Shown here piece by piece: positions 7,675 to 32,322 of a stretch of DNA of 38,452 bases; positions within the stretch are counted from its first letter, which is position 1; each line of letters starts with the position of its first letter. The position numbers and the translations under genes are program-made. Below the pieces are notes generated by a model. It made no database searches, had not been told where the DNA came from, and saw only the letters and a program-made list of their open reading frames with translations. The DNA comes from Thermoleophilia bacterium (lineage in GTDB: Bacteria > Actinomycetota > Thermoleophilia > Gaiellales > Gaiellaceae), in NCBI GenBank assembly GCA_023382435.1, contig JAHDVS010000024.1, forward strand, positions 1 to 38,452. The letters run 5' to 3'.

Positions 7675-8355
7675 TCAGGAAACGGAACGCACACGGCTCG
7701 CCGGGCAGATGTCGGCGAGCACGCACTCCGCGCAGGCCGGTGCACGGGCGCGGCAGACGCGCCGCCCGTGCCAGATGAAGAGGTGCGGCAGACGCCCCCA
7801 GTCCTCACGAGGCACGAGCCGCTGCAGATCCAGCTCGATCCGCCCGGGGTCGTCGTGGCGCGTCAGACCGAGACGCTGGGAAAGCCGGCGCACGTGCGTG
7901 TCGACGACGATGCCCTGAACCGCGCCCCGCTCGGCCGCGACGACGTTCGCGGTTTTGCGACCGACGCCCGGAAGTCGTGTCAGCTCCTCGAGCTCGAGCG
8001 GCACCTCGCCGCCGAAATCCTCGACGATCGCGCGCATCGCGCCCTTCAGGTTGCGGGCCTTCTGGCGGTAGGTGCCCGTCGCACGGATGTCCTCCTCGAG
8101 CCGCTCGAGCGGAACGGCCAGGTAGTCCTCGGGACGACGGTAGGCCCGAAACAGCGACCCGGTGACCCGATTGACCGTGACGTCCGTGGTCTGCGCGGAG
8201 AGCATCGTCGCCACGAGCAGCTCGAGGTCCGTGCGGAAGCGCAGCGCGATCCCGGCGTCCGGGTGGGCTGAAGCGAGCCGCTCCAGGATCGGCCCGATGC
8301 GCGCCGCGCGCCGCCCGACGCGGCGCCGCGCTTCGTGGACGTAGCTCGGGGCCAC
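7675..8355 (-). CDS. nth: Endonuclease III (Fe-S DNA glycosylase/AP lyase)
   Basis: A 226-residue base-excision repair enzyme that removes oxidised pyrimidines and nicks at the abasic site. The helix-hairpin-helix is LPGVGRKTANVV, with catalytic Lys near 134; catalytic Asp 152 is in VVDTHVRR. The C-terminal 4Fe-4S loop is C-x6-C-x2-C-x5-C (C201, C208, C211, C217). All catalytic and cluster residues are present. GTG 8355 begins 4 nt after the stop of the AddA-like gene, so it is the last gene of that operon. A longer upstream frame exists but would run through the helicase gene. Confidence 0.95.
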   Translation of the reverse strand: MAPSYVHEARRRVGRRAARIGPILERLASAHPDAGIALRFRTDLELLVATMLSAQTTDVTVNRVTGSLFRAYRRPEDYLAVPLERLEEDIRATGTYRQKARNLKGAMRAIVEDFGGEVPLELEELTRLPGVGRKTANVVAAERGAVQGIVVDTHVRRLSQRLGLTRHDDPGRIELDLQRLVPREDWGRLPHLFIWHGRRVCRARAPACAECVLADICPASRVRSVS

Positions 8356-8359
8356 GCCG

Positions 8360-11300
8360 CTACACCGTGGCGGCCAGCGGGGCCCCGGCGGACCCGCCGG
8401 GGCGCACGGACAGACGCGGGCCGGCGCAGACCCGGTCGAGCGCGGGACAGCCGGCGCAGACGAGCTCGCCCGGCGTCGGCTCGAAGCGCCCCGACCGGAT
8501 CGAGTCGACCGCCTCGCCAAGCTCCGTCTCGAGCGTCGGGAGATCGCCGCGGCCGAGGACCGCCGCCACGACGTCCTCCGGGCGCTCCAGGAAGACGTAG
8601 GCGACCTCGACCTCCTCCGCCCCGGCCCGCAGCGCCGCGAGCGCGTAGACGAGCCTCTGGAGGCGGTAGTCGCCCTCGACGATCTCCGCCGGCGCCCCCT
8701 CGCCGAGCCGGTGCGTCTTGTAGTCGACGACGAGGGTCAGGGGGCCGTCTCGGGCGATCACGTCGAAGCGCCCGTGCACGAGCACGCCGTCGTGCTCGAA
8801 CGCGAAAGGCCGCTCGACGCCACGCTGCGGGAGCCCGGCCAGCCGGCGCGCCAGCGCCGAGCCGTGCCACGCGTCGACGAGCGAGCGGACGCGCTCCAGG
8901 TCGGCGGGCGTCGCGTGCGGGTAGCGAGCGCGAGCCAGGTCGGAAGCCTGCGGGGGCGGGACGCCCGCCTCCAGGATCGCATGGACGGCGTCTCCGAGCT
9001 CGGTGGCCGCGAGCCCCTCGGCGGCATCCTCGACGATCTCACGAGCCTCCGAGACGCCGGCGATCCGCTCGACGTAGTAGCGGTACGGGCAGCGCGCGTA
9101 CAGCGCGAGCGCACTGTAGGAGAGGCGCCGCACGGCGCGTGCGGGCGGGGCGGGCACGGGCGGCAGGTCGGGCAGCTCGAACACGGGCGCGGCCGGCGGT
9201 GCCTGCCCGGGCTGGAACAGCTCCAGCTGCTGGTCTGCGGCTGGTTCCGCGGGCGCGAGCGCGGCCGGCAGGGACCGCTCGACGCGCATGAGCACGCGCG
9301 CCCCGTTGCAGTCGAGCTCCACCGGCCCGTCCGCCTCGGTATCGGCGCCGAGGCGCTCGAGCACCCAGCCGATCGGTGTGCGCTCGGACCCGGGACGATC
9401 CGGATCGAGAGCGCCCGAGACGATCAGCCGATCGATCGCCCGGGTCATGGCGACGTAGTAGAGCCGGCGGCTCTCCTGCTCCTGCGCGGCGCGCTCAGCC
9501 TCCCGCACGCGGTCGTAGCCGAGCACACCGACCCGCTTGCCCGACACCGGGTCGGCGACCCGGAAGCCGAGCCGGCCGTCGGGCAGGCACAGGATCTCGT
9601 CCGCCGCCGCGGGGGCCCCCATCCGGCCGGCGTCGCAGACCACGACGACGCGGAACTCGAGCCCCTTGGCCGCGTGGATCGTGAGCAGCCGCACGGCCCG
9701 CGCGCCCTCGTCCTCGGCGACCGCCTCGACCTCGCGTGCGCCCGCCGCCTCCTGGTCGCGGACGAAGCGAACGAACCCCTCGAGATCGGGGCCCCGCAGC
9801 TCTTCGTACGAGCGCGCCAGCCGGGCGAGCTTGCGGAGGTTCGCGTAACGCCGCCGCCCGTCCCAGCGGGCGAGCACGGCGAGGTCGTAGTCGTGCTCGG
9901 CGACGATCCGCTCGCAGAGGCGCTCGAGCCCGGCGGAGGCGGAGAGCGTGCAGAGGCGGTCGTAGCGCTGACGGAACGCCTCCACGAGCCGGTGGTCGCG
10001 CTCGGAGAGCCCCGGGGGCGGCTGCCGCTCGAGCCCGGTGAACAGCGGGCCCCGGCTCGCATAGCGCAGGAGCGCGAGCGCGTCGTTCGACACGCCGACG
10101 AGTGGGGAGGCGAGCACGGTGACGAGCGCCTCGTCGTCGTAGCGGTTCTGGAGCAGGCGCAGGTAGGCGAGCAGGTCGACGACCTGCTGCTGGCCGAAGT
10201 AGCCTCGCCCGGTTGCGCGGAGGGTCGGCAACCCCTGTTCGCGCAGCGCCTCCTCGTACTGCTCTGCGCTCGTGCCCGCCGCGAACAAGAGGACGATCTC
10301 GCCGGGCTCGCAGGCGCCCTCGTCCACGAGGCCGCGCACTCGTCGGGCGACATGCAGCGCTTCGGCGCGACGCCAGTGGGTGCCGCTGCCCCGGAACGCG
10401 GCCTTGTCGGTGACGAGCAGCTCGACCGCCGGCTCGACCGAGGAGTCGGGGAACCGCCCGGCGGCCTCGAGGGGCTGGAAGCTAGGGCCGAAGCCCGACG
10501 CGAAAACATGATTGACGACGGCGAGCACCTCGGGACGGGAGCGGTAGTTGCGGGTCAGCGCGAGCACGCCGGCGCTTCGAGCACGCCGCTCGCGGAACAC
10601 GTCGACGTCGGCGTGACGGAAGCGGTAGATCGACTGGAACTCGTCGCCGACGAAGAACAGGTCGGCGCCATCGCCGGCCACGAGGTCGATCAGCTCGCAC
10701 TGGAGACGATTCGTGTCCTGGAACTCGTCGACGAGCAGGACGCGGAAGCGAAACCGCGTGCGCTCGCGCACGGTCGCGTCCGCGCGCAGCAGATCGCGGG
10801 CGGCGAGCTGGAGGTCCTCGAAATCGAGCGCGGACTCGCGGTCCTTGGCGGCCCGGTAGGCCCGGTCGAACAGGCCCAGCAGCTCCTCGAGCAGCGCGCG
10901 ATCGCGGGTCGCCAGCTCCTCGAGGTTCGGCTCCCCCGGCCCGGGCTCCGCGACCGCCACGTCGGAGCCCTCGAGCGGCAGCTCGAGCGGCAGCCCTGCG
11001 GAGCGCAGCCGCCCGTGCACGGCGGTCAGCATGCTCGCGAGCCCGCGGGCACCGTACGTCTCGAGCAGCCGCAGTCGCTCGGGCTCCCGATCCGAGCACA
11101 GCTCCGCAAGCGCCGACTGGAACGCTGCGGCGCGCAGCACGGCCGCCTGGCTCTCGTCGAGGACGCGGAAGCGCGGGTCGAGCCCGGCCTCGAACGGGTG
11201 CGCGCGCAGCAACCGCGCGCAGAACCCGTGGATGGTCGACACCCACGCCCGATCGAGGTCACGGGCGAGGTCTCGGCGTCCCCCCTCGCGCAGGCGGCGG

Positions 11301-11533
11301 CGGATCCGCTCGCGCAGCTCACCGGCGGCCCGTTCCGTGTACGTGATCACGAGCACCGAGTCGATCCCCAGCCCGCGGTCGACCACGGCCCGTACGAAGC
11401 GCTCGACGAGCACCGTCGTCTTGCCGGTGCCTGCGCCCGCGGACACGAATACGACCCCGTCCGCGCCGATCGCGGCGAGCTGCTCGGGATTGACGAGCGG
11501 CGCGCCCACCTGCCCACCGTTCTCCCCCGTCAT
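8360..11533 (-). CDS. addA: AddA-like UvrD-family helicase with RecB-type nuclease
   Basis: A 1057-residue helicase-nuclease for end resection of double-strand breaks. Superfamily 1 motifs are complete: Walker A SAGAGTGKTT (31-40), VLLVDEFQDTNR, FVGDEFQSIYRFRHAD, LTIHAAKGLEF and YYVAMTRAIDRL. The C-terminal PD-(D/E)XK domain has His 851, Asp 924, Asp 937, Lys 939 (VVDYKTH) and Gln 959. Cysteines at 815, 1026, 1029 and 1036 bracket it as in Fe-S-stapled nucleases. The ATG overlaps the stop of the AddB-like gene (ATGA), and nth follows. In the mycobacterial AdnAB alternative both subunits have helicase domains; the partner here does not, so AddAB-like is the better name. Confidence 0.9.
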   Translation of the reverse strand: MTGENGGQVGAPLVNPEQLAAIGADGVVFVSAGAGTGKTTVLVERFVRAVVDRGLGIDSVLVITYTERAAGELRERIRRRLREGGRRDLARDLDRAWVSTIHGFCARLLRAHPFEAGLDPRFRVLDESQAAVLRAAAFQSALAELCSDREPERLRLLETYGARGLASMLTAVHGRLRSAGLPLELPLEGSDVAVAEPGPGEPNLEELATRDRALLEELLGLFDRAYRAAKDRESALDFEDLQLAARDLLRADATVRERTRFRFRVLLVDEFQDTNRLQCELIDLVAGDGADLFFVGDEFQSIYRFRHADVDVFRERRARSAGVLALTRNYRSRPEVLAVVNHVFASGFGPSFQPLEAAGRFPDSSVEPAVELLVTDKAAFRGSGTHWRRAEALHVARRVRGLVDEGACEPGEIVLLFAAGTSAEQYEEALREQGLPTLRATGRGYFGQQQVVDLLAYLRLLQNRYDDEALVTVLASPLVGVSNDALALLRYASRGPLFTGLERQPPPGLSERDHRLVEAFRQRYDRLCTLSASAGLERLCERIVAEHDYDLAVLARWDGRRRYANLRKLARLARSYEELRGPDLEGFVRFVRDQEAAGAREVEAVAEDEGARAVRLLTIHAAKGLEFRVVVVCDAGRMGAPAAADEILCLPDGRLGFRVADPVSGKRVGVLGYDRVREAERAAQEQESRRLYYVAMTRAIDRLIVSGALDPDRPGSERTPIGWVLERLGADTEADGPVELDCNGARVLMRVERSLPAALAPAEPAADQQLELFQPGQAPPAAPVFELPDLPPVPAPPARAVRRLSYSALALYARCPYRYYVERIAGVSEAREIVEDAAEGLAATELGDAVHAILEAGVPPPQASDLARARYPHATPADLERVRSLVDAWHGSALARRLAGLPQRGVERPFAFEHDGVLVHGRFDVIARDGPLTLVVDYKTHRLGEGAPAEIVEGDYRLQRLVYALAALRAGAEEVEVAYVFLERPEDVVAAVLGRGDLPTLETELGEAVDSIRSGRFEPTPGELVCAGCPALDRVCAGPRLSVRPGGSAGAPLAATV

Positions 11534-14457
11534 GCGCGGGCGACCCGACACATCGACCACAGCTCACACCAGGACGGGCAGCCGTCGGCGTAGCGGGGGT
11601 CGTGGCGCACGTCCCCGGCCCGGATGCGCGCCGCCGCCCCCCGGGCCCACCCGGCGGCCCGCTCGACCAGCCCCCAGAACGCCTCCTCGTCGAGGTAGTC
11701 GCGGGGCGCGAGCCCGGGAAGATCATCCCGAGCCTCGGCACGCAGGAGCCCGCGCGCCTCGCGCTCCCCGGAGAGGGAGCGATACAGCCCCCCGAGCGGC
11801 TCGATCCCGCAGAGATCGCGCAGGGCAAGCACGTACAGCGGCATCTGGAGGCGGCTGTCGGACTCGATCCGGGCAGCCGAGTGCGCGGCACCCGACTTGT
11901 AGTCCTGGACGATTCCGCGCGCGGAGAACGGATCGACGTCGATCCGATCGATCTTGCCGCTGACGGTGAAGCCGCCCAGCTCGAGCCCGCGCTGGAGCTC
12001 GGGTGCCGCCCGGTCGGTGCCGAACGAGACCTCGAAACGTCGCGGCACGAGCGGGAGACCGAGCTCGACGTCCCGCCGGACGAACTGCTCGAGATCGCGA
12101 GCGAGCGTCCCGCCCAGCTCGAGCAGCGCGACCTCCTGGTAGTCGGCCCGGAGGTGGCTTCGGATTGCGTCCTCGAGGCACTCGCGCAGGAACTCGATCG
12201 CCTCCTCGACCCGGCCGGGGTCGACGGTGTCGGTGCCGAAGCGACGGGGCAGACCGTCGAAGAAACGGTGCAGAACAGCGTGGGCGACCTGGCCGCGGAG
12301 TCGAGCGTCGATCTCCGCGTCGATGCGCCTGGGATTGACGACGCGCTCCACGAACCACATCGACGAGCAGTCGAGCATGCGCTCCAGCTCCGTCGCGGAG
12401 AAGCGGCCCGTGGCGGCAAGCCGGTCGACCACGGCTGTGCTCTCGAGCTGCGTCGGGCGCGAGAACGCGGCGAGGGCCCGCTCGATCTGACGCTCCCATC
12501 CCCCCGCCCGGGCGAGCGAGCGTGCGGCCGGCTCGTCCGTCGCGGCCAGCGCGGCGACGGCGCGCACGCGCTCGCGGGCGGTCGGGGCGAGGTGGAGCTC
12601 CCAGGTCACGTCCGAGAGCGAGCGCCGCCGGGTCGCGCGCTCCACCTCCTCCGGCGCGAAGCGGGAGCGGACCTCGTCCCAGAACGGGCTCGGCTCGAGC
12701 GAACGGCCGTCGTCGGTCGCGGCCTCGCGAACGAGGTAGAGCCGCCGCCACGGCCGCGTGCACGCCGTGTAGAACAGGTAACGGTCGAGCGCGGTCCGGT
12801 CGGGGCGCACGAGTCGCCGGCGGGGACGGTTCTGCTCCTCGAGCGCCCGGAGGCGCTCGTCGGGGAGAAACGGGGATTCCACGGCGCGGCGTGGCAGCAC
12901 GCCCTCTTCGAGACCGAGCACGAACACGACGCCGAAGCGCCTCGTGCGCGCCCGCAGCAGGTCGAGCACGACGACCCGTCCGGGCTCGCGGGCACGAGTG
13001 GAGACGGTCGTCTGCTCGAGCGCCGCGACGAGCTCGTCCTGCCCGGCGCGGCCGCCGAGCGCCTCCCAGGCCTGCAGCTCGTCGAGCAGGGTGCCGACGG
13101 CCTCGCCGACCCGCAGGTCGAGTTCGAGCGGCTCCGCGACCGCCGGCGCGTCCGGGTTCCAGGCGGCGCGGAGCATCGTCCGGCAGAGCGCGCGCACCGC
13201 CTCGGCGGGCGTCCCGGGGCCCCGCAGCAGCTCCAGTGCGGGTAGCGAATGGCCGAGCAGGCGCAGCGCCTCGGCCTCGACCCGGGCGGGCTCGGAGACG
13301 GCGCGGCCTCGCAGCCGCCCCTCGACGAAGTCCGAGCGGTGACGCGGCAGGGCCGAGTAGCGCGAGCGCAGGAACGTGAACAGGTCTGCCCGCGTGCCGT
13401 CGAGCCAGGCAAACCGCAGGATGCCGAGGAGCGCGCGCCCCAGCGCGGTCCGCCCCAGCCGCAGCGGCCCGTCCACGGCGTAGGGGATGCCGAGCGCGCC
13501 GAACACCGTCTCGAGGGGAGCGCGCACGCGCTCGACCGACGGCACGACGACGGCGATCTGGTCGGCCGGCTCGCCGGCTCGCAGCAGCGCGAGGATCTCG
13601 CCGCCGACGAGCTCGAGCGCCGCCCGGGCCCCGGAGCCCTCGAGAAAGCGGACGGCACCGTCGAGCGGCGGCGGCTCGCGCTCGCCGTCCTGGAACAGCT
13701 CACGCTCGAGGTGCGCCAGCGCGGGCGTGTCGTACCAGGAGCGGGCGGGCAGCTCGTCGATCCTGTCGCCCGCGAGCGCCGCCAGGTCACCGGCGACACG
13801 CTCGAGCGCCTCGAACACAGGCCGTCCGGGCTCGTAGGGCAGCGCAACGCACACGTCGCCGCGGGCGGCGACGGCCTCGAGGAGCGCCCACCTCGAGCCG
13901 GAGAGATCGTCGAAGCCGTACACGAACACCGGTGACCCGTCCCACGCGTCGAGGCTGCCGGCCACGAGCGCCGCGGCGCTGCTCGCTCGCAGCTCGGGAT
14001 CCCACAGCGCGAGCCGATCGAGCTCGCTCCGGTAGGCGCGGTAGAGCAGGCCGAGCTCACCGTCCACCTCCGCGGGCTCGATCAGGCCCGCCTCGAGCAC
14101 GGCGATCGCGTCCCCGAGCGAGTCGGCGAAGCCGCGGAACCGCGCTGAGCGTGCCAGGGGCCCGGTCTCGGTGTCCGCGACCAGATCGGCGAGGAGTAGA
14201 GCCCGCTGGGCGCGACCGAGGGCGGGCCGCCCGGGCCCCGCCCCCCGGACGATGCGCTCGACGAGGTCGTCGAACGTGCCGATCGCGCCGCCGATGAGCG
14301 CGGGGACGCGGGTCAGGAGCTCGCGCTCGGTCCGCTCGACCTCGTCCCGGTCGGGCACGACGAGGAAGGGCTCCCGGTCGAGTGCGGCGAGATATCGATC
14401 GAGTAGGCTGGCAACCTTGCCGGCGTTCGCCGGGCCGACGAGCAGAGCCAGCGGCAC
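11530..14457 (-). CDS. addB: AddB-like subunit with PD-(D/E)XK nuclease
   Basis: A 975-residue partner of the AddA-like helicase. The N-terminus carries a P-loop remnant GPANAGKV (8-15) in which the Ser/Thr after Lys is Val. The middle has AddB/RexB-type VFVLGLEEGVLP and a TACTRPWRRLYLV segment, but no recognisable DExx box. The C-terminal nuclease is intact: His near 726, Asp 837 (SGKIDRID), Asp 852 and Lys 854 (VQDYKSG), and Gln 871. Four cysteines (697, 960, 964, 970) fit an Fe-S staple. It is the first gene of the operon. GTG 14457 is preceded by TAGGAT 6 nt upstream, so the operon mRNA is probably leaderless. Confidence 0.85.
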   Translation of the reverse strand: MPLALLVGPANAGKVASLLDRYLAALDREPFLVVPDRDEVERTERELLTRVPALIGGAIGTFDDLVERIVRGAGPGRPALGRAQRALLLADLVADTETGPLARSARFRGFADSLGDAIAVLEAGLIEPAEVDGELGLLYRAYRSELDRLALWDPELRASSAAALVAGSLDAWDGSPVFVYGFDDLSGSRWALLEAVAARGDVCVALPYEPGRPVFEALERVAGDLAALAGDRIDELPARSWYDTPALAHLERELFQDGEREPPPLDGAVRFLEGSGARAALELVGGEILALLRAGEPADQIAVVVPSVERVRAPLETVFGALGIPYAVDGPLRLGRTALGRALLGILRFAWLDGTRADLFTFLRSRYSALPRHRSDFVEGRLRGRAVSEPARVEAEALRLLGHSLPALELLRGPGTPAEAVRALCRTMLRAAWNPDAPAVAEPLELDLRVGEAVGTLLDELQAWEALGGRAGQDELVAALEQTTVSTRAREPGRVVVLDLLRARTRRFGVVFVLGLEEGVLPRRAVESPFLPDERLRALEEQNRPRRRLVRPDRTALDRYLFYTACTRPWRRLYLVREAATDDGRSLEPSPFWDEVRSRFAPEEVERATRRRSLSDVTWELHLAPTARERVRAVAALAATDEPAARSLARAGGWERQIERALAAFSRPTQLESTAVVDRLAATGRFSATELERMLDCSSMWFVERVVNPRRIDAEIDARLRGQVAHAVLHRFFDGLPRRFGTDTVDPGRVEEAIEFLRECLEDAIRSHLRADYQEVALLELGGTLARDLEQFVRRDVELGLPLVPRRFEVSFGTDRAAPELQRGLELGGFTVSGKIDRIDVDPFSARGIVQDYKSGAAHSAARIESDSRLQMPLYVLALRDLCGIEPLGGLYRSLSGEREARGLLRAEARDDLPGLAPRDYLDEEAFWGLVERAAGWARGAAARIRAGDVRHDPRYADGCPSWCELWSMCRVARA

Positions 14458-29109: not shown

Positions 29110-29113
<4 letters not shown>

Positions 29114-32100
29114 GCGGCGACCCGCAGGGCGAGGACCGCTTCGACGAGGCCGAGCGCCCCGGGGAGGTCATCGGAGCGGATCCCGAGCTCGCGGCGTGCG
29201 CTCGAGTAGACGGCGGTCGGCGCGAGTGTCCGTAGCGCCAGGAGCTCGGTGGAGCCGAGCACGACCGGCCCGAGTGCGGCCTTGCCGCCGCGCAGGACGA
29301 GGTAGTCGCCGCCGAGACGAGCCAGCTTCAGCTTCGCCTCCTGGATCTGGAAGAGGCGCTCGACGGGCTCGGGCAGGGGGCCGAAGCGATCCGCCGTGCC
29401 GGCATGCAGCTCCCGCAGCTCGTCCTCTGTTTCCGACAGCGAGATCCTCCGGTGGAGGTCGATCTTGGCGGCCTCGGCGGCGATGTACGCGGCGGGGACG
29501 TACGCGTCCACGTGCGCGTCGACCCGGACGGGGCGCGCGATGCCGCGGCCGGCCCCGGTGAGCTCGGCGACCGCCTCGGCAAGCAGCTCGACGTACAGCT
29601 CGAATCCGATCGCGGCGACGTGGCCGGACTGCTCGGCTCCGAGCAGGGAGCCGGCGCCGCGCAGCTCGAGGTCGCGCATGGCGATCTGGAAGCCGGCGCC
29701 GAGCTCGGTGTGGTCGGCGAGGGTCGCAAGCCGCGAGCGCGCTTCCGCCGTGAGGTCGGCGGCCTCGGGGTAGAACAGGTAGGCGTGGGCGACCGCGTCG
29801 CTGCGTCCGACGCGCCCGCGGATCTGGTAGAGCTGGGCGAGCCCGAGCGTGTCGGCGCGCTCGACGACGAGCGTGTTGGCCTGCGGGATGTCGAGCCCGG
29901 ACTCGATGATGGTGGTGGAGACGAGGACGTCGGCGTCGCCGCGCACGAAGGCGAGCATCCGCTCCTCGAGCTCGCGCTCCCCGAGCTGGCCGTGAGCGAC
30001 GAGGAACCGCAGCTCCGGGCAGATCTGCCGCAGCTTCTCGGCGCGGTCCTCGATCGTCTCGACCCGGTTGTGCAGGTAGAAGGACTGGCCGCCGCGCTCG
30101 CGCTCCCGAACGAGCGCGAGTCGCGTGAGCTCCTCGTCGTACTCGCCGACGTGGGTGCGAATGGGGCGGCGACCGTGGGGTGGAGTCTCGATCACGCTGA
30201 TGTCCCGGAGCCCCGCGAGCGACATGTGGAGCGTCCTGGGGATCGGGGTGGCGGAAAGGGAGAGCACGTCGACTTCGAGGCGAAGCTGGCGCAGGAGCTC
30301 CTTCTGCGCGACCCCGAAGCGTTGCTCCTCGTCGACGATCACGAGGCCGAGACTCCTCGGCACGACATCGCGGGAGAGGACGCGGTGGGTTCCGATCAGG
30401 ATGTCCACGGTGCCGGCCGCGAAGGCGGACAGGACTGCCTTCACCTCGGCCGGCCTGCGAAAGCGCGACACCATCTCGACGTTCACGGGCAGGTCGCGAT
30501 ACCGCTCCCGGAACGTGTTCCAGTGCTGTTGGGCGAGCACCGTGGTGGGAGCGAGCAGCAGCGCCTGGCGCCCGTTCGCGACGGCAACGAAGGCCGCCCG
30601 GACGGCGACTTCGGTCTTGCCGAACCCCACGTCGCCGCAGACCAGACGATCCATCGGCCTGGGCGACTCGAGATCCTCCTTGACCGCCTCGATGGCGCGC
30701 CGCTGGTCGGGCGTCTCCTCCCAGGGAAACGAGGCTTCGAGCTGCTCGACGAGCTCGCCGTCGACGTCGTAGGGGGTCCCCTCGGCGCGCTGACGCTGCG
30801 CATAGAGGGCCAGCAGCTCGCCGGCGAGCTCGTGTGCGCCCGCCCGGGCGCGGGCCTTGATGTTCTGCCACGCCTTGCCACCGAGTTTCGAGAGCGCGGG
30901 CGCGGTTGCGTCGGCGCCGACGTAGCGGGAGACCTTGCCGATCTGCTCGTGCGGCACGTAGAGGCGGTCGTCGCCGCGGAACGCGAGGAACAGGTAGTCG
31001 CGGGTGACGCCAGCGACCGTCTTCGTCTCGAATCCCAGCAGCCGGCCGATGCCGTGGTCCTCGTGGACGACGTGGTCGCCGATGCGCAGGTCGGCGAACG
31101 TCTGGAGGGCCCGGCCGAGGCGAGCGTCCGCGCGCGGCGGACGTTTTCGAAACACCTGCGTGTCGGGCAGGAGGACGAGTCGAAGCTCCCGCGACACGAA
31201 GCCCCGCCGCGCGGGGGCGACGGCGAAGCTGAGTCCCGGGTCAGCGGGCAGCGGCTCCCCGGGATCGAGCAGGCTCGCCTCGATCTTGCGGAGCAGCGCG
31301 CGGGTGCGCAACGCCTCGCCGCGGTGCGCGAACGTGACGACGACCCGGTTGCCGGAGCGCACGAACCCGGCCAGCTCGTTCTCGGCCTCGGCGAGGCCCC
31401 GGGCGGCGATCGCGGGTCGCTGGGCCTCGAACGCGAGCGGCTGGCCGACTGGCAGGGAGTCGAGCTCGACGGCGGTCGGGAGCGGCTGCTCCCGACCGAG
31501 CTCCTCACGCCAGATCTCGCGCACGCGAGCTGGTTCCCAGACGAGGTCGGCGCCCGGGAGCGGCGCGACGAGATCATCGGGCTCGGCGGCGGCCGCATCG
31601 AGCGAGCGCTCCGCGGCCGGGTAGATGACCGCTTCGGCGAGCGGGTGCAAAGTCCGCTGGGTGAACGGCGAGAAGGCGCGGATCGTCTCGATCTGATCGC
31701 CGTAGAGCTCGATCCGCACGGGCTCGCGCCCGGTCGTGCGGAACACGTCGACGATGCCGCCGCGAACGGCGAACTGCCCTCGCTCCTCGACCCGCTCGAC
31801 CCGCTCGTAGCCGGCCAGCGAGAGCCGCTCGGCCAGCGCTCCGGCCCCGGGCTCGTCCCCGGTTGCGATCCGGATCGCCTCGGCACGCTGCCCCTCCGGG
31901 GGAAGCCCCTGGGCAAGGCCGAGCGCGGAGGCGCACACGAGGCCTCCCCCACCGTGCACGGCGAGTGCTCGGGCACGCTCGCCGACGAGGTGGGGCGGCG
32001 GCGCGAGGCCACTTTCGAACGTGACGCCCCGCGACGCGAGCAGCCCCACGCGCTCCGCGCCCACGTACCAGCCGGCGGCGTCGGCCACGTCCCGGGCGTC

Positions 32101-32322
32101 GGCGTCCTCCGGCAGGAGGCAGACGAGACCGCGCCCCGGCGTGGTGAGCCAACGGGCCGCGAGCAGCACCGGCACCAGCGGCTCCGAGACACGAGCCCGG
32201 GCGGCCGGCCCGGCAGCGAGAAGCTCCCCGAGCCGATCGGTTGCGGCCAGCTCGAGCGCGAGTGCCCGCAGCGGCGCGGCCACCGCGTCAGCCTCCTCCT
32301 CGTGGCGGTGCTCGGGGTCCAT
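29110..32322 (-). CDS. mfd: Transcription-repair coupling factor Mfd
   Basis: A 1070-residue DNA translocase that removes stalled RNA polymerase at lesions and recruits UvrA. The N-terminal UvrB-like modules (about 1-360) are followed by the CarD-like polymerase-binding domain (RIGDHVVHEDHGIGRLLGFE, about 410-480). The RecG-like motor has Walker A CGDVGFGKTEVA, the DEEQ box VIVDEEQRFGV, SATPIPRTLHMSL and QIRGRVGRS, and a TRCF C-terminal domain closes the protein. The length is slightly short for the family. It has an ATG start without SD, and a TAGGAT box lies 33 nt upstream. Confidence 0.97.

Follow-up and report, generated by a model that had tools for sequence, protein, structure and literature searches.

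Helicase-nucleases of the AddAB type follow a plan in which a single motor is combined with two nuclease domains (PMC4824097), and the work on AddAB and AdnAB assigns a single Fe-S cluster to the subunit responsible for cutting the 5'-ended strand and asks why. In the available passages of PMC7430649, iron-staple domains are termed rare and AddB is given as the first example; there, and in the available parts of PMC7311471 and PMC4176176, a structural role is ascribed to the AddB staple, which is said to be required for DNA-end binding. According to the accessible text of PMC3466216, zinc replaces the cluster in a related DUF3799 nuclease. Fusions of UvrD with a Cas4-like nuclease are also known, in defence settings (PMC5704561, available passages).

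The window analyzed here, a stretch of 38,452 nucleotides, carries on the minus strand an addB-like gene (11530..14457) and, downstream of it with a 4-base overlap, an addA-like gene (8360..11533). The pair derives from a Thermoleophilia-like actinobacterium; among the matches listed, a named relative with 57% identity is a Thermoleophilia MAG (L177). The Bacillus gene order is likewise addB-addA, and the adjacency of the two genes is retained in relatives of the window pair. The AddA open reading frame (ORF) extends over 8360-11560 (minus strand) and encodes 1066 aa from a GTG; the ATG at 11533, giving an ATGA overlap with the AddB stop, is the likelier start. AddA consists of a UvrD-type motor, with the motifs AGAGTGKT and LLVDEFQD, and a C-terminal RecB-family nuclease, in the domain order PF00580, PF13361, PF12705; the last of these (PDDEXK_1, 97.8 bits for the whole protein) covers ORF residues 812-1041 (8438..9127, minus strand). 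AddB (975 aa) combines a helicase-like N-terminus, in which a vestigial GPANAGKV is seen, with a C-terminal RecB-family nuclease (PF12705, 92.8 bits, residues 685-971; 11545..12405, minus strand), apart from which only a sub-threshold trace of UvrD_C was detected.

These features place the pair with AddAB: one subunit has a motor and a nuclease, the other a staple-bearing nuclease but no working motor, and the genes are adjacent. B. subtilis AddAB (3u44, 4cej) likewise has one UvrD-type motor, two RecB-family nucleases and the AddB staple, and its chains are the closest solved proteins to the window AddA (3u44_A, 201 bits) and AddB (3u44_B, 31.6 bits). Mycobacterial AdnAB (7sjr, 6ppu) also has two nucleases but bears motors in both subunits, whereas a motif search of the window AddB for Walker B gave no match, so the pair lacks the double set of motor motifs that marks AdnAB. 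Given that both proteins score below the cut-offs of the NCBIfam equivalogs for the Gram-positive enzymes (TIGR02785, 324.9 against 707.65 for AddA; TIGR02773, 63.4 against 903.7 for AddB), the pair is of the AddAB type but belongs to another branch than those equivalogs.

Several other repair-related genes were noted in the window. Following addA on the same strand is an endonuclease III-like gene (7675-8520, minus strand) with an HhH-GPD domain and the cluster motif C-x6-C-x2-C-x5-C, and in the same-order loci L050-L058 and L063-L069 an nth-like ORF also adjoins addA on the same strand, so that addB, addA and nth seem to form an operon devoted to DNA repair by Fe-S proteins. A DinG/XPD-like helicase (PF13307; 2537-4459, minus strand) has cysteines C120, C184, C189 and C195, the spacing of which we take to be that of an XPD/DinG-like Fe-S cluster, and an Mfd-like gene is located at 29110-32322. 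Elsewhere in the same genome, two weaker PDDEXK_1 matches were found (C23:29240-29590 and C35:27938-28285); neither region matched the AddA or AddB models.

The nuclease domain of AddA contains Cys824 (9089..9091), followed some 210 residues later by a C-x2-C-x6-C triad formed by Cys1035 (8456..8458), Cys1038 (8447..8449) and Cys1045 (8426..8428), all encoded on the minus strand and proposed here as ligands 1 to 4. These cysteines bracket the catalytic residues H860 (8981-8983), D933 (8762-8764), the D946-Y-K948 motif (8717..8725) and Q968 (8657-8659), likewise on the minus strand. The earlier note had described the same arrangement around a complete nuclease site as Cys 815 and C1026-x2-C-x6-C1036; its numbers are 9 lower because they were counted from the ATG at 11533 rather than from the GTG at 11560. 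RecB motifs together with four conserved cysteines spanning the domain make up the iron-staple signature, which AddA thus shares with Bad/DNA2, Cas4 and EXO5 (PMC7430649 and PMC3466216, available passages), although these are single-chain enzymes with one staple each. The signature in AddB, which the earlier note had placed at Cys 697 and C960-x3-C-x5-C970 around the second nuclease site, was found as written and with unchanged numbering: the proposed first ligand Cys697 is encoded at 12367..12369, and the triad Cys960/964/970 at 11578-11580, 11566-11568 and 11548-11550 (minus strand). The catalytic residues are complete in the nucleases of both subunits, and in each the first cysteine precedes the domain core and the triad closes it.

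The earlier note had regarded a lack of conservation in orthologues as fatal to an AddA-side cluster, and the reverse was found. Among 31 same-order rows, the window included, C824, C1035, C1038 and C1045 are cysteine in 30/30, 28/28, 27/28 and 28/28 ungapped rows, the lone exception being a glycine at the second triad position in L030. In an alignment of 20 sequences, chosen for bearing the cysteines, all four are invariant beside the H/E/G/D/D/K/Q/Y residues. On the AddB side, C960, C964 and C970 are cysteine in 25/25 same-order rows and C697 in all four rows that reach it, the other 21 loci ending before this position. Conservation of this kind in both subunits is therefore not due to chance. 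Neither of two additional cysteines in the AddB domain looks like a core ligand: C760 (12178-12180, minus strand) is present in 24/24 ungapped near relatives, with no equivalent in the alignment of further families of the class, and C883 is cysteine in only 2/25 same-order rows.

B. subtilis AddA (3u44_A, 1232 aa) ends about 7 residues past the last aligned nuclease strand and thus lacks the C-terminal triad, and it has no cysteine at the position of the first ligand (in a weak second alignment stretch), whereas the window AddA has all four. A 2025 review (PMC11981726), in the passage available, states that B. subtilis AddA holds the FeS cluster and cites the AddAB paper for it, whereas PMC7430649, which in its available part refers to the AddB work as its own, places the cluster in AddB. 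The B. subtilis AddA sequence, having no triad, agrees with the latter account, and the passage in PMC11981726 appears to mislabel AddB as AddA. Apart from this passage, we found no report of a four-cysteine staple in AddA or AdnB in the open-licence literature, as far as its accessible text goes. In mycobacterial AdnAB, the AddB-side subunit AdnA has the staple set (a first cysteine and CANCPVRSSC), and the solved AdnB, over the part of its nuclease that was aligned, shows none of these cysteines, in contrast to the four of the window AddA.

Models of the nuclease domains were obtained from 11 sequences for AddA (mean pLDDT 79.9) and from 9 sequences for AddB (mean pLDDT 80.0). Given that a sequence search of the PDB with the AddA nuclease domain alone yielded no match, a fold search was used. 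The AddA domain is predicted to fold like the nucleases of AdnA and AddB, the best match being AdnA 7sjr_A (Z 17.7, 227 aligned at rmsd 3.3, with model 1-247 on chain residues 781-1037) and the next AddB 4cej_B (Z 15.1, rmsd 4.2, 240 aligned); 3l0a (Z 14.8, rmsd 5.1, 213 aligned) and RecBCD are weaker matches. Bacillus AddA chains match the same model in Foldseek, with 4ceh_A in the first row, and the AddB model matches AddB 4cej_B (Z 23.9, rmsd 3.5, 299 aligned). Because C25 and C246 of the AddA model correspond to proposed ligands 1 and 4, the AdnA match spans the staple region of AdnA, as judged from AdnA cysteines read from the alignment; the AdnA cluster is an Fe-S cluster. The tail that holds C1035, C1038 and C1045 was modeled with low confidence (pLDDT about 50).

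The spread of the AddA set was followed in loci chosen for their resemblance to the window AddA, with 60 from the class, 40 from the phylum and a further 80 named ones that came out of a genome-contig scan, so the fractions that follow are not unbiased frequencies. Only loci with both a motor and a nuclease were retained in the tables; the named set represents 80 of 557 confirmed places; most of these 80 are plain UvrD-type helicases, and the nuclease-bearing members were tabulated. L179 (contig ending before the triad) and L181 (unusable motif call) were left out before the motor tree was made, L093 (contig edge) was left out of the co-variation test, and the AddB proteins of L087 and L093 were left out of the pair table; L139 and L184 were scored as four-cysteine by reading alignments, and AddB states were assigned by regular expression for most rows and by reading the tails for the rest.

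Among the 110 aligned AddA/AdnB-type nuclease domains of the listed loci, unfiltered by cysteine content, 66 have all four cysteines, 41 have none and only 3 are partial (one stray cysteine each in L091 and L150, and the contig end in L093); the active-site residues H, D, D and K occur in 110/110 and the Q in 107/110. With L093 excluded, the full set occurs in 35/47 pairs and 8/10 solos of the class and in 11/30 pairs and 2/2 solos of the phylum; among the named loci listed, it occurs in 4/12 pairs and 6/8 solos. Of the listed gene pairs in which both subunits could be read (n=88), 47 are complete on both sides, 30 have the set in the AddB-side subunit only, 2 in the AddA-side subunit only and 9 in neither. 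A rule by which a pair always keeps at least one staple was considered and is refuted by these 9 pairs. Pairs with two staple sets are widely distributed: they were found throughout the class, elsewhere among the actinobacteria, in Planctomycetota and in Bacillota, and in pairs of both the AddAB and the AdnAB type. Among the matches listed, each subunit carries the set in the named pairs L178 (Aquicultor), L180 (Planctomycetota), L187 (Tissierellia) and L189 (Thermoflavimicrobium dichotomicum).

Variation on the AddB side takes other forms. The AddB-like proteins of L062, L082, L106, L142, L146 and L175 have three of the four staple cysteines and lack the last one, with the sequence ending in WR in L062, L082 and L106; L062 and L082 are the two pairs with the AddA-side set only, and their WR stands where the last cysteine is expected. 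In the AdnA-like partners encoded at L140:3268-6363 and L161:8928-11972, the nuclease DxK is lost and the four cysteines are retained, as would be expected if the AddB-side staple served structure or the holding of DNA. A transfer of the cluster from AddB to AddA in some lineages was also considered, following a first regular-expression search that hinted at loss in AddB of family f10, and was rejected when the alignment revealed the AddB cysteines with a longer spacing. In family f11, single ORFs that match both AddB and AddA were observed (L089:2945-10240, 2432 aa; L100:4790-12349, 2520 aa); these are apparent addB-addA fusions in which the AddA-side four-cysteine set is kept.

UvrD-Cas4 fusions resemble the window AddA in being single chains with both a UvrD-type motor and a RecB/Cas4-like Fe-S nuclease; as described in the available passages of PMC5704561, they are stand-alone or located near defence genes, whereas the window addA is paired with addB. 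UvrD-Cas4-like proteins with a motor and a four-cysteine nuclease were observed in nine loci (L095, L096, L098, L160, L145, L188, L193, L196 and L197); their motors group apart from the AddA-type motors, and an adjoining AddB-like partner was undetected. The motor of the window AddA does not group with the solos but sits with the AddA-type motors on a starred branch of the tree, and the protein, which has an AddB partner, does not belong with the UvrD-Cas4 fusions of the pfam12705 branch.

In a tree of the motor part, which includes no nuclease columns, the four-cysteine state changes 9 times, and the first cysteine and the C-terminal triad co-vary in 7/7 independent pairs (sign test, p 0.0156). 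Where distant cysteines are all present or all absent but the active site persists, ligation of one metal center is the best explanation, and the sequence comparison hence argues for the binding of one shared metal cluster by the four cysteines of AddA. The window pair is probably a DSB-resecting helicase-nuclease of the AddAB type, with one motor and two RecB-family nucleases that each have a four-cysteine metal staple of their own, most likely [4Fe-4S]; we infer the identity of the metal, the heterodimer, the strand assignment and the structural role of the cluster. Under this model, AddA would pull the complex along the 3'-ended strand and its nuclease would cut that strand, with the AddB nuclease cutting the 5'-ended one, and each cluster would link the C-terminal tail with the helix in front of the nuclease core, thereby maintaining the shape of the nuclease domain and of its DNA channel.

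The earlier note had seen in the pair an intermediate design between AddAB and AdnAB, with one motor, two nucleases and possibly two clusters. The presence of two nucleases, both with a conserved four-cysteine signature, is supported, but one motor with two nucleases is the standard AddAB design. L140, L157, L161 and L162 are pairs of the AdnAB type, with Walker A and Walker B in both subunits, and they have the cysteines in both; in L157, the AddA-side protein resembles AdnB (6ppu_B, 350 bits), whereas the score of its partner against AdnA 7sjr_A, 130 bits, is slightly under that against PcrA (141). Single-staple pairs are also found in both types. The number of staples varies within AddAB and AdnAB alike and is therefore no marker of a transition between them.

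Given that a RecB-like nuclease with the same four-cysteine layout holds zinc in the crystal 3L0A (PMC3466216, available passage), and that this structure is among the fold matches of the AddA model, the AddA site could bind zinc or another metal, leaving AddB as the only Fe-S subunit. We consider this unlikely because the nearest matches of the model are instead AdnA and AddB, the latter with an Fe-S cluster according to the available part of PMC7430649, and the spacing in the AddA tail resembles that of other Fe-S members. A role of the AddA cysteines in shutting off the nuclease in response to redox state or oxygen, in place of a structural one, would suit their all-or-none presence next to a retained active site, as expected of an accessory control device; it appears very unlikely given that in human DNA2, which has the same kind of staple, redox control is independent of the cluster and the role of the cluster is structural (PMC7311471, available passages). 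The many AddA-side domains with an intact active site and none of the four cysteines (41/110) count against the necessity of the staple, and since the AddA proteins of L059-L061, from the same taxonomic order as the window, lack all four, the staple is dispensable for the fold.

The same three orthologs, together with the best fold match of the AddA domain being AdnA, an AddB-side protein, could be taken to indicate that the AddA nuclease is a foreign module whose cysteines were acquired by a domain swap from an AddB-like or Cas4-like nuclease. This origin is very unlikely in our view, given that in a tree of the nuclease core made with the cysteines removed, AddA-side domains form one group whether or not they have the set, and 36/37 AddB-side domains fall apart from them, the deepest split being weak (67). 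A recent import of the set from AddB is therefore unlikely. The cysteines stand at the same four positions as in AddB, AdnA and Cas4-like nucleases, for which reason a double-stapled ancestor followed by repeated loss in the motor subunit is the preferred scenario, the unrooted trees being compatible with either loss or gain. It is quite possible, if a little short of probable, that the common ancestor of AddAB and AdnAB was stapled in both nucleases and that Bacillus AddA and mycobacterial AdnB are derived forms that lost the motor-side cluster, in several independent events that each removed the whole set and spared the active site.

Together, these observations suggest that the motor-side staple has been switched on and off repeatedly in evolution and that the double-stapled form is widespread. 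Under the scenario of repeated loss, the motor-side cluster would be a removable module, and its loss a natural experiment on the function of iron staples. Since nature provides a large set of enzymes in which both, one or neither of the staple sets is complete and the AddA-side active site is kept, it becomes testable whether the cluster generally stabilizes the fold, contributes to the DNA channel or exerts control. For Thermoleophilia-type AddAB, the double-staple reading predicts about 8 Fe per heterodimer, and it would broaden the view, drawn from model organisms, of which subunit may carry the cluster.
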